47,306 nt of DNA. Origin: Sphingopyxis sp. KK2. GTDB lineage: Bacteria > Pseudomonadota > Alphaproteobacteria > Sphingomonadales > Sphingomonadaceae. Under the pieces are notes generated by a model, which saw nothing but the letters and a program-made list of their open reading frames with translations, searched no databases and had not been told where the DNA came from. A program made the position numbers and the translations under genes. Below, piece after piece: positions 29,927 through 33,261 of this stretch. Within the stretch, counting starts at the first letter, position 1. Every line of letters starts with the position of its first letter. Location of the stretch: contig NZ_LYVN01000015.1 in NCBI RefSeq assembly GCF_001990265.1, positions 1 to 47,306 on the forward strand. Direction: 5' to 3'.

Positions 29927-31120
29927 ATGGCCAAGGCTAAATTTGAGCGGACGAAGCCGCACTGCAACATCGGCACCATCGGTCACGTCGACCATGGCAA
30001 GACCTCGCTGACCGCAGCGATCACCAAGGTGCTCGCCGAAAACGTCGCCGGCAACGCCGCCGTCGACTTCGCGAACATCGACAAGGCTCCCGAAGAGCGC
30101 GAGCGCGGCATCACCATTTCGACCGCCCACGTCGAATATGAAACCGATGGCCGCCACTATGCGCACGTCGACTGCCCGGGTCACGCTGACTATGTGAAGA
30201 ACATGATCACCGGTGCCGCCCAGATGGACGGCGCGATCCTCGTCGTGTCGGCCGCTGACGGCCCGATGCCGCAGACCAAGGAGCACATCCTGCTCGCCAA
30301 GCAGGTCGGCGTCCCCACCATGGTCGTCTTCCTCAACAAGGTCGACCAGCTGGACGATCCCGAGCTGCTCGAACTCGTCGAGCTGGAAATCCGCGAAGAA
30401 CTGTCGAAGCGCGACTTCGACGGCGACAATATTCCGATCATCCCGGGTTCGGCTCTCGCTGCCCTCGAAGGTCGCGACGACAACATCGGCAAGGACGCGA
30501 TCCTGAAGCTGATGGCTGCCGTCGACGCGTGGATCCCGCAGCCGGAACGTCCGCTCGACAAGCCCTTCCTGATGCCGATCGAAGACGTGTTCTCGATCTC
30601 GGGTCGCGGTACCGTCGTCACCGGCCGTATCGAAACCGGCGTCGTCAAGGTTGGTGAAGAAGTCGAAATCGTCGGCATCAAGGACACCAAGAAGACCGTC
30701 GTGACCGGCGTCGAAATGTTCCGCAAGCTGCTCGACCAGGGCCAGGCTGGCGACAACGTCGGTGCGCTGATCCGCGGCGTCGGCCGTGAAGAAGTCGAGC
30801 GTGGCCAGGTTCTCTGCAAGCCCGGCACGATCAAGCCGCACACCGAGTTCACCTCGGAAGTCTACGTCCTGTCGAAGGACGAAGGCGGCCGTCACACGCC
30901 GTTCTTCGCGAACTATCGTCCGCAGTTCTACTTCCGCACCACGGACGTCACCGGCGAGGTCATCCTCCCCGAGGGGACCGAGATGGTCATGCCGGGCGAC
31001 AACGTCCAGCTGTCGGTCAAGCTGATCGCCCCGATCGCCATGGACCAGGGTCTGCGCTTCGCGATTCGCGAAGGTGGCCGTACGGTCGGCGCAGGGGTTG
31101 TCGCGACCATCACAAAGTAA
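29927..31120 (+). CDS. tuf: Elongation factor Tu
   Basis: A 397-residue EF-Tu, which delivers aminoacyl-tRNA to the ribosome. Motifs are [14 protein letters not shown] (G1), [13 protein letters not shown] (switch I), [13 protein letters not shown] (G3), and [12 protein letters not shown] (G4). Domain 2 has [25 protein letters not shown]. Length is standard. A second tuf copy elsewhere in the genome cannot be excluded. Confidence 0.99.
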
Positions 31121-31130
31121 TATAGGGCCG

Positions 31131-31165
31131 CGAGCCGCGCGATTCGGACTGATTCGCGCGGCTCG
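31131..31165 (+). terminator. Strong hairpin after tuf
   Basis: A perfect 12-bp stem (arms 31131-31142 and 31154-31165, CGAGCCGCGCGA / TCGCGCGGCTCG) with an 11-base loop begins 11 bases after the tuf stop. A short T-run (GGTTTTT) is found about ten bases further on, too far for a textbook intrinsic terminator. It probably ends or attenuates the str transcript before rpsJ. Confidence 0.6.
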
Positions 31166-31267
31166 TAGCTTAAAGGTTTTTGATGGCCGGGCCGGCTTCC
31201 TGATGGGGGCCGGTACAAGCCATTTCGGCTCTTTCGCATCGTTAGACGGGATTCGACTGGAACAGTC

Positions 31268-31579
31268 ATGGAAACGCAGAATATTCGCATTCGCCTGAAG
31301 GCCTTTGATCACCGCGTGCTCGATCAGGCCACCACCGACATCGCCGACACGGCGCGTCGTACCGGAGCGCTTATTCGCGGCCCGATCCCGCTTCCGACGC
31401 GTATTGAAAAATTCACCGTGAACCGCGGCCCCCATGTCGACAAGAAGTCGCGCGAGCAGTTCGAGGTGCGTACCCACAAGCGGCTGCTCGACATCGTGCA
31501 GCCCACCCCGCAGACCGTCGACGCGTTGATGAAGCTCGACCTGGCTGCTGGCGTGAACGTCGAGATCAAGTTGGCCTAA
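31268..31579 (+). CDS. rpsJ: Ribosomal protein S10 (NusE)
   Basis: The 103-residue S10, part of the 30S head and also the NusE antitermination factor. Conserved [56 protein letters not shown] and VNVEIKLA end. The spacer on its 3' side is unusually long and structured (see 31611-31824). Confidence 0.98.
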
Positions 31580-31589
31580 GCCAACGCTG

Positions 31590-31607
31590 CCCCCGCGAAA
31601 GCGGGGG
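31590..31607. repeat. Short palindrome with GAAA loop (copy 2)
   Basis: A perfect 7-bp stem CCCCCGC / GCGGGGG around GAAA, followed by TCT, lies 11 bases after the rpsJ stop. It is a near relative of the palindrome at 19940-19957. It could also act as a weak transcript end or RNA-stability element. Confidence 0.55.
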
Positions 31608-31610
31608 TCT

Positions 31611-31824
31611 CTATCGGCAGGACGGTTCGCCGCCTGTATCACGATAGGGTGGATACCGCCGGACCGCTTCCTCGGAAGCATCATGGTCCGGGCTGCGTCC
31701 CCCGTCTCGCCGCTCCTCCTTCGGGAAGGCGGCACCTCAGCCCGGACGGGGCGATGCATCGAAATTATGGGCTGGGAGGGTTCCGGAGAGGCTTGCCTCA
31801 TCGGGTCCCGCAAGCCGTGCGGAA
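31611..31824 (+). ncRNA. Highly structured rpsJ-rplC spacer RNA (candidate leader/riboregulator)
   Basis: Four stems can be drawn. P1: arms 31611-31616 and 31642-31647, with an inner CAGG/CCTG stem, bulged A and a UUCG tetraloop at 31626-31629. P2: 31660-31670 with 31675-31679 and 31685-31690, hairpin loop CTCG, five-base bulge on the 3' side. P3: 31686-31695 with 31738-31747, ten perfect pairs, enclosing an inner stem capped by UUCG at 31720-31723. P4: 31790-31796 with 31810-31816 plus outer TTCCG/CGGAA. P2 and P3 share bases 31686-31690 and cannot both form fully. It sits directly ahead of the rplC ribosome-binding site. Function unknown. Confidence 0.65.
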
Positions 31825-31858
31825 TGGTCCGCCCGGCCTCTGTTGAGGAGTATTGATC

Positions 31859-32632
31859 ATGCGGACTGGCGTGATCGCGAAGAAAATGGGGATGACCCGC
31901 CTGTTTCAGGACGACGGCCGCCACGTGCCCGTCACCGTCCTGAGCCTCGAAGGCTGCCAGGTCATTTCCGTGCGCGAACAAGAACGTGACGGCTATGTCG
32001 CCGTCCAGCTCGGTGCCGGCTCGGCGAAGGCGAAGAACGTCGCCAAGCCCCAGCGCGGCGCTTTCGGCAAGGCCGAAGTCGAACCCAAGGCGAAGGTCGT
32101 CGAATTCCGCGTCGCTGACGACGCGACGCTCGACGTCGGCGCCGAACTGTCGGCCGACCATTTCGTCGCCGGCCAGATCGTCGATATCCAGGGCGTCACG
32201 CAGGGCAAGGGCTTTGCCGGCGCGATGAAGCGCTGGGGTTTCGGAGGCATGCGCGCCACGCACGGCGTGTCGATCAGCCACCGTGCCCATGGTTCGACGG
32301 GTAACCGCCAGGATCCGGGCCGCGTCTTCAAGAACAAGAAGATGGCCGGCCACATGGGCGCGCGCAACCGCACCCAGCAGAATCTCGAAATCGTCCGCAC
32401 CGACGCCGAGCGCGGCCTTCTCTTCGTCAAGGGCTCGGTCCCTGGCTCGAAGGGCGGCTGGCTGCTCGTCCGCGACGCGGTGAAACTGCCCCGCCACCCC
32501 GAGGCCCCCTATCCGGCGGGCATCAAGAGCGCGGCCAACAGCAACGATGCCCCGGCTGACGCGCCGGTCGAAACGCCGGTCGAAGAAACCGTCGTCGACA
32601 CCGCGGCCACCGACGGCGCGCAGGAGTCCTGA
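31859..32632 (+). CDS. rplC: Ribosomal protein L3
   Basis: A 257-residue L3 that helps nucleate 50S assembly. [16 protein letters not shown] starts the protein, and [19 protein letters not shown] and [27 protein letters not shown] (with the Gln methylated in other bacteria) are intact. The C-terminal 35 residues form an acidic Ala/Pro/Glu tail. I chose the ATG at 31859, eight bases after GAGGAG; a TTG two codons upstream is less likely. Confidence 0.98.
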
Positions 32633-32634
32633 AC

Positions 32635-33261
32635 ATGAAGGTCAAGGTTCAGACCATCGACGGCAAGGCCGGTAGCGACATCGACCTCAACGACGACGTC
32701 TTCGGCGTCGATCCGCGCGCCGACATCCTGCACCGCGTCGTGTCGTGGCAGCTCGAAAAGCGTCGTGGTCCGGCTCGCGCCGCCCGCGAACGCAGCGACG
32801 TCGCCCGCACCGGCAAGAAGTTCGGTCGCCAGAAGGGCGGCGGTACCGCGCGTCACGGCGATCGCAAGGCGCCGATCTTCATCGGCGGTGGCAAGGCGCA
32901 CGGTCCCCGGGCCCGCACCTTCGGTCACTCGCTGAATAAGAAGATCCGTGCGCTCGGCCTCAAGATGGCGCTCAGCGACAAGGCGAAGGGCGGCAAGATC
33001 GTCGTTCTCGACACGCTCGAGCTCAAGGATGCCAAGACGAAGGCGCTCGCCGGCAAGCTCGGCAAGCTCGAACTCGGCAACCGCGCACTCTTCATCGACG
33101 GCGATGCGGTCCATGAAAGCTTCGCCATGGCGTCGGCCAACCTGATCGGTATCGACTCGATGCCGGCGGCTGGTGCCAACGTCTATGACATCATCCGTGC
33201 CGACACGCTGGTCCTGACCCGCGCGGCGGTCGAAAAGCTGGAGGCCCGTTTCAATGGCTAA
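32635..33261 (+). CDS. rplD: Ribosomal protein L4
   Basis: A 208-residue L4, a 23S rRNA-binding protein whose long loop lines the exit tunnel. The loop region includes [25 protein letters not shown], and the C-terminal [24 protein letters not shown] is typical. In E. coli L4 is the autogenous regulator of the S10 operon, which makes it the natural partner to test against the structured spacer upstream of rplC. Two bases separate it from rplC; its end overlaps rplW by eight bases. Confidence 0.98.

Follow-up and report, generated by a model that had tools for sequence, protein, structure and literature searches.

The DNA analyzed here, referred to as the window, is a stretch of 47,306 nucleotides from Sphingopyxis sp. 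KK2 in which rpsJ is followed on the same strand by rplC (Table 1). A sequence-only reading of this DNA had stated that 279 bases intervene between the two genes and that rplC normally follows rpsJ within tens of bases, and measurement bore out both statements. The gap was 279 nt in the window (rpsJ end, 31579; rplC start, 31859), 203 to 323 nt in 70 Sphingopyxis loci and 164 to 381 nt in the 178 Sphingomonadaceae loci that carry the element described below. Outside the family, the gap was -1 to 40 nt in 18/18 loci (8 in seven further families of the order and 10 elsewhere in the class), with one of the rplC starts (L268) being uncertain. For gap measurement, rpsJ was sought in 28 genomes, one of which (G401) gave no match and another of which (G228) ended before rplC, leaving 26 gaps.

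Folding of the whole spacer gave a predicted energy of -139.6 kcal/mol (z = -2.69), and 4 of 200 dinucleotide shuffles folded equally well. The core alone folded more weakly (z = -1.86; 10 of 200 shuffles), and hence folding energy alone would not settle the reality of the structure. UUCG loops capping two hairpins, as had been reported from the sequence, were seen at 31626-31629 and 31720-31723. A scan of positions 30500 to 33000 detected no sigma-70 promoter match, and a terminator scan of the same region found none on the plus strand and two terminator-like sites, both on the minus strand. In a coding test of the core, no frame was open throughout the members (open in 24, 42, and 22 of 94). 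The core (31650-31858) is present as a single copy in the window's genome.

Table 1. Features of the rpsJ-rplC interval and its borders (window positions)
Feature	Position	Strand	Basis
rpsJ (S10)	31268-31579	+	ORF
Dispersed palindromic repeat (CCCCCGCGAAAGCGGGGG)	31590-31607	+	37 genomic places, reversed control 0; genus conservation only 0.72
Lineage-specific stem CTATCG...CGATAG with inner hairpin	31609-31649	+	Aligned genus spacers (69 distinct); identity to window averages 0.76
P0 5' strand, UGGA here, giving three pairs GGA/UCC; elsewhere GGGA, GAGA, or GGAA	31650-31653	+	Covariation
Near-invariant GAUACCG	31652-31658	+	Family spacers
Pa hairpin (31659-31665 with 31685-31691), lineage-specific sub-hairpin in loop	31659-31691	+	98.7% of cells paired
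Pb 5' strand	31695-31707	+	Pb 95.5% of cells paired
UCCC shared strand, partner P0 5' strand or inside Pb	31698-31701	+	Covariation
Pc hairpin, UUCG loop in window	31709-31733	+	87.1% of cells paired
PK (pseudoknot) 5' strand CUCAGCCC	31736-31743	+	Covariation, repeated origins
Pb 3' strand, C31752 bulged	31744-31757	+	Structure model
PK 3' strand GGGCUGGG	31769-31776	+	Covariation, repeated origins
Variable arm, PK to Pe; missing in many members, intrinsic terminator in some	31777-31809	+	Genus conservation 0.73 (31775-31809)
Pe hairpin, CAA in front (CAnGC...GC)	31811-31837	+	95.1% of cells paired
Near-invariant GCCUCUG, predicted to be able to pair with Shine-Dalgarno	31836-31842	+	Family spacers
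rplC Shine-Dalgarno AGGAG	31846-31850	+	Sequence
Start-codon hairpin GAUCAUG/CGUGAUC (31855-31861 with 31870-31876)	31855-31876	+	Predicted in window
rplC (L3), first gene 3' of element	31859-32632	+	ORF

The hairpin nearest rpsJ lies outside the conserved element. It is a palindrome (CCCCCG-CGAAAG-CGGGGG), and the count of its genomic places, which includes the copy described here, was obtained with a 21-nt pattern allowing up to 3 mismatches; several copies occur as facing pairs with starts 44 to 60 nt apart. The sequence-only reading had named a match to a known repeat as grounds for abandoning its proposal; a repeat was found in this first hairpin, and the core is single copy. The stem that follows is not universal: different sequence takes its place in some congeners and in other genera. 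By eye, a number of family loci (for example, L108, L110, L117, L120, L125, and L126) have in the 5' halves of their spacers a common stretch before the core, around GGAC-TTAAACG-CCGG with a GGGGC/GCCCC hairpin, that is absent from the window.

Comparison of relatives gave the 5'-to-3' order of the conserved element as the P0 strand, GAUACCG, Pa, Pb enclosing Pc, PK, Pe, GCCUCUG, the Shine-Dalgarno sequence, and the start codon. All but one of the 179 family spacers contained GATACC[GAT] or AATACCG, and GATACC alone occurred in 170. Conservation was computed over 65 loci of the genus, including that of the window. Conserved core segments had 0.97 to 0.996 identity to the window, versus 0.84 for the third codon positions of rplC. 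Lower values were found for the Pa loop (0.54), the variable arm (0.73), Pc and the loop after Pb (0.84 each), and the nucleotides separating the Shine-Dalgarno sequence from the start codon (0.85).

The distribution of the element was examined by searches with sequence and with covariance models. With positions 31658-31862 as the query, blastn gave matches in 102 of 199 family genomes, representing 50 of 96 genera. Of 296 genomes from the order, 201 were matched by a model built from 34 family members (R1), and all but one of these belonged to the family itself; at least 13 Sphingomonadaceae genomes had no R1 match. Class-wide, R1 matched 4 of 289 genomes and R2, rebuilt from 94 members, matched 5 of 385, all Sphingomonadaceae. 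Because the model searches were strictly filtered and scored either 10 or 6 candidates per genome, they may have overlooked weak members. One match in another family (G343; E = 8.6e-5) was dismissed as chance, since it had no adjacent rpsJ or rplC and the rpsJ-rplC gap of that genome was 5 nt.

Among 90 loci inspected (L164 to L253), rpsJ and rplC flanked the match in 82, and the other 8 were weak matches (E of 8.6e-5 or worse). One flanked locus (L187) was also a weak match, in a 107-nt gap without a GATACC-type motif. The strong matches examined all sat between rpsJ and rplC. In a set of 80 named loci holding close relatives of rplC, the element was located at the rplC start in all except one (L341, Sphingosinicella microcystinivorans), with 6 of the 79 matches ending 5 to 7 nt before the end of the start codon. 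Names of bearers include Sphingopyxis, Sphingomonas, Sphingobium, Novosphingobium, Sphingomicrobium, and Altererythrobacter. A consistent position directly before a ribosomal-protein gene, which is one mark of ribosomal-protein leaders, was therefore found across genomes (81/81 and 79/80).

The other such mark, a conserved secondary structure with covariation, was also found. The sequence-only reading had proposed an alignment across Sphingomonadaceae with a test of covariation. The 179 family spacers (178 with the motif) were reduced by greedy removal above 86% identity to 94 members, which were aligned to R1 to give alignment A2. The model of Pa, Pb, Pc, Pe, and PK was paired in 94.1% of 3,723 cells, compared to 79.3% in shuffles, and in 34% to 51% when slid out of register. 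The stems were kept, with 543 double-changed cells versus 131 in shuffles, and changes on both sides were detected in 30 of 41 pairs (Pa, 5 of 5 counted; Pb, 7 of 13; Pc, 6 of 6 counted; Pe, 7 of 9 counted).

As A2 was fitted to four of the five model helices, PK and P0, which lie outside the fit, provide a fairer test. For these two, 96.5% of cells were paired versus 92.2% in shuffles, and there were 57 double-changed cells versus 6.9, a level reached by 0 of 500 shuffles; the pair counts and pair-type counts were equalled by 17 and 23 of 500 shuffles, respectively. In PK, CAGCCC/GGGCUG was changed to CCAACCC/GGGUUGG or UUGGCCC/GGGCCAA, and in P0, rows with GAGA had UCUC in 8 of 9 cases and rows with GGAA had UUCC in 7 of 7. 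Parsimony was applied on a FastTree phylogeny of rpsJ plus rplC (94 leaves, about 700 nt, midpoint root, no support filtering). The A-U states of two P0 pairs required 5 and 8 events, and the double-changed states of four PK pairs required 7, 4, 4, and 11. These states arose repeatedly, and inheritance of one change does not explain the covariation. Overall, these results indicated that the sequence from 31650 to the rplC start is almost certainly a conserved structured RNA that is functional and acts in cis.

The UCCC strand can pair with the P0 5' strand or with the Pb 3' strand, never both. Seven rows have UU at the first two UCCC positions; all seven have A as the P0 partner, and four of them also have A as the Pb partner. 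In rows with UC, A is never the Pb partner. Four GU rows in another register, in 2 of which the Pb column is A, were excluded from this count. P0 itself is clearly backed by covariation, and an exchange of UCCC between P0 and Pb would fit these changes, in a small number of rows.

At the 3' end, GCCTCT[GA] was present in 178 of 179 spacers, with its 3' end 14 to 21 nt upstream of the start codon. In the window, pairing of GCCUCUG with the Shine-Dalgarno sequence is predicted, as is a hairpin of the start codon with the first rplC codons. All 7 pairs of this hairpin can form in 60 of 94 relatives and at least 6 in 72 of 94, and no clear covariation was detected in it across the 94 members. Eight family gaps without the full element (37 to 107 nt) have kept the GCCUCUG motif in 8/8 cases, with a hairpin in front of it, judged by eye, in 7/8. 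From these gaps, the Pe hairpin with GCCUCUG looks like an older, simpler module. In one 99-nt gap without the full element (L257, genome G117), two successive copies of a hairpin followed by GGCCTCTG were seen, as if the module had been duplicated.

A strict terminator scan was positive in 9 of the 94 members. Eight of these terminators, from seven genera, lie directly behind PK, with ends 55 to 65 nt upstream of the rplC start, and the ninth is elsewhere. Terminators anywhere averaged 3.55 in 20 shuffled sets, with a maximum of 7. The strictness of the scan left uncounted five loci with sequences that by eye resemble imperfect terminators (L170, L174, L176, L178, and L182). Since terminators are present only in a minority, the mechanism cannot be uniform everywhere, and control may be exerted on transcription in some genera and on translation in others.

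Autogenous control by a ribosomal protein of the operon is suggested by the constant place before a ribosomal-protein gene, the single copy in the window's genome, the exchange of pairing, and the terminators. We consider it probable, at a level well short of certainty, that the RNA is a ribosomal-protein leader controlling rplC and downstream genes from a site inside the S10 cluster. A ribosomal protein encoded by the operon and present in excess would bind this RNA and stabilize one of its two folds, and the stabilized fold would lower expression of rplC and the downstream genes. In the window, where the Shine-Dalgarno sequence and start codon can pair and the scan gave no terminator, the action would be on translation. 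In seven other genera, whose intrinsic terminator lies directly 3' of PK, it would consist of ending transcription between rpsJ and rplC. A new ribosomal-protein leader had been proposed from the sequence. Conservation, fixed position, and covariation give strong support to the part of this proposal that concerns a cis-regulatory RNA; the ribosomal-protein part is the best interpretation at hand. The leading guesses for the ligand are L4, the known regulator of the operon in E. coli, and L3, the product of the first gene, and nothing in the analysis favors either in particular. A fuller version, which taken as a whole is rather unlikely, is that of an undescribed family-wide pseudoknotted leader with UCCC exchanging between P0 and the outer part of Pb, with L3 as the ligand, grown on the Pe and GCCUCUG module, with attenuators gained in several lineages and rpsJ keeping a separate boxA-like control. 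If this fuller version were true, one RNA fold would drive either translation or transcription control.

A different switch had been suggested from the sequence, in which a stem at 31659-31665/31685-31691 (P2) alternates with one at 31686-31695/31738-31747 (P3) in response to L3 or L4. The perfect 10-bp pairing on which it depends was located at the latter positions, where the two strands are exactly complementary in the window. Positions 31686-31691 are shared with the 3' strand of the stem before it, so that either stem could form. Across the family, P3 was slightly above shuffles (79.5% of cells paired versus 77.7%, with slid versions at 54% or less; 24 double-changed cells versus 11.4, 0 of 500 shuffles). 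However, pairing at its two outermost positions is missing in 59 of 90 and 49 of 93 relatives, respectively, and the changes at shared-strand positions (49 in 34 rows) were accompanied by Watson-Crick partners in PK in 20 cases and in P3 in 8 (42 versus 36 when G-U pairs were included). The pairing of P3 may largely follow from conservation of its strands for Pa, Pb, and PK. The competition between P0 and Pb is better supported, and the P2/P3 switch is very improbable.

Other explanations dispense with a ribosomal-protein ligand. The element could be a structural one for constitutive translation or for the stability or processing of the rplC mRNA, for instance a site of RNase cleavage or protection. 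Its many stems and its place between two genes of a single long cluster would suit such a role, and the retention of GCCUCUG, mostly behind a hairpin, in gaps without the full element would be expected of a simple translation start element. GCCUCUG can also pair with the Shine-Dalgarno sequence. The near-invariant GAUACCG, PK, and the competing pairings nevertheless exceed the needs of a cleavage site or stabilizer, and the terminators behind PK suggest a conditional decision, making this explanation an unlikely one, with some weight. Riboswitches typically have a pseudoknot and highly conserved unpaired nucleotides, so the features seen here would also be typical of a regulatory RNA answering to a small molecule or an ion, and the boxA-like motif before rpsJ, the gene of S10 (NusE), would suit the Nus antitermination complex as a ligand. 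Against these ligands, all strong matches with readable context precede a ribosomal-protein gene and the genome of the window has one copy, a pattern of autoregulation and not of a metabolite switch; furthermore, the rpsJ-rplC gap of the window lacks the boxA-like core GCTCTTT, which occurs in 1 of 179 family gaps. Another ligand is accordingly judged distinctly unlikely. That the spacer is nonfunctional GC-rich sequence made of dispersed palindromic repeats holds for the first hairpin and could draw on the modest overall z-score (only -2.69), but the core is single copy, occupies one position family-wide, and covaries, and we give this explanation practically no credence.

Mimicry of rRNA was also considered, as ribosomal-protein leaders frequently, though not always, resemble the rRNA site of their ligand and GATACCG is reminiscent of a stretch of helix 89 of E. 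coli 23S rRNA. The assembly of Sphingopyxis sp. KK2 gave no 23S match, and the 23S locus of a congener was used. In a comparison of sequence, this locus with its flanks had no stretch of 9 nt or longer in common with the element (31656-31861), and neither GATACC nor GCCTCTG was present in the locus. Mimicry was thus rejected at the sequence level.

The Rfam search that had been called for gave no match in the whole window at the gathering score (4,227 families), and positions 31100-31900, searched with E values of up to 10 admitted, had only nine subthreshold matches, with E values of 0.41 to 8.9, none of them convincing. According to two reports, uL4 regulates the S10 operon of enterobacteria and certain relatives, such as Haemophilus influenzae and Vibrio cholerae, and uS7 and uS8 act at sites inside their operons, str and spc (PMC10931766, PMC2704228). 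The uL4 leader is similar to the Sphingomonadaceae RNA in its operon, its structured RNA, a terminator (in some genera here), and possible control of both transcription and translation (PMC10931766). It differs in that the E. coli type precedes rpsJ, whereas the RNA described here follows rpsJ in every context read; the distinction is drawn from position and the Rfam result. A Rho-independent terminator, a feature of the E. coli type, was detected directly behind PK in 8/94 members by the strict scan and was not detected on the plus strand at 30500 to 33000 in the window. The uS7 and uS8 sites likewise lie inside an operon before a later gene (same reports), with different genes and ligands and no Rfam match in the window.

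Several candidate leaders were compared by their descriptions. In the report of Eckert and Weinberg (2020; PMC7247131), an alphaproteobacterial L2 leader candidate from the same gene cluster and class is listed for rplB, rpsS, rplV, and rpsC and not for rplC. The rplW-rplB gap of the window is only 21 nt, and the element precedes rplC, not rplB. The Archaeoglobi L4 leader candidate (rplC, rplD, rplW, rplB) in the same report likewise precedes rplC; it is archaeal, and the likeness is one of description only. The rpsJ motif (RLC-47-1), a candidate leader at rpsJ in Peptostreptococcaceae (PMC11109978), lies before rpsJ in three genera that belong to another phylum and is set apart by that description. 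Table 1 of PMC7247131 lists no candidate before rplC in Alphaproteobacteria, and the portions consulted of the main texts of the open-licence PMC literature contained no description of such an RNA. L3 was not met as a leader ligand in the portions of the ribosomal-protein leader literature examined. The RNA is apparently undescribed and is a putative member of the ribosomal-protein leader kind.

As this kind is already known, the surprise is moderate. The S10 cluster makes a large share of the ribosome, and its control has been described for E. coli and relatives, with none found for Sphingomonadales in the portions of the literature examined. With its pseudoknot, near-invariant motifs, and covarying strand exchange, this family-wide RNA is a concrete target for studies of ribosomal-protein binding and fold switching. 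The graded forms in living genera, from a minimal hairpin through the full element to the element with a terminator, lend themselves to the study of how a regulator is assembled in evolution.

The gap between tuf and rpsJ (31121-31267) contains the motif GGCTCTTTC[GT]CATCG at 31227-31241. This motif was located 7 to 26 nt (median, 10) upstream of the rpsJ start and, where both genes were readable, was found in 60 of 118 family loci versus 0 of 17 loci outside the family. Its GCUCUUU core resembles boxA. A putative boxA before rpsJ has been reported elsewhere for three genera (PMC5725501), and the motif possibly serves autocontrol by NusE. The suggestion that the control site had moved inside the operon was not upheld: the tuf-rpsJ gap keeps its own conserved boxA-like motif, and hence there may be two control sites. 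Upstream of the motif, two hairpins were seen by eye at 31121-31225, at least partly conserved in 30 loci of the genus; the first of these is followed by a T-run and could be a tuf terminator or an attenuator.
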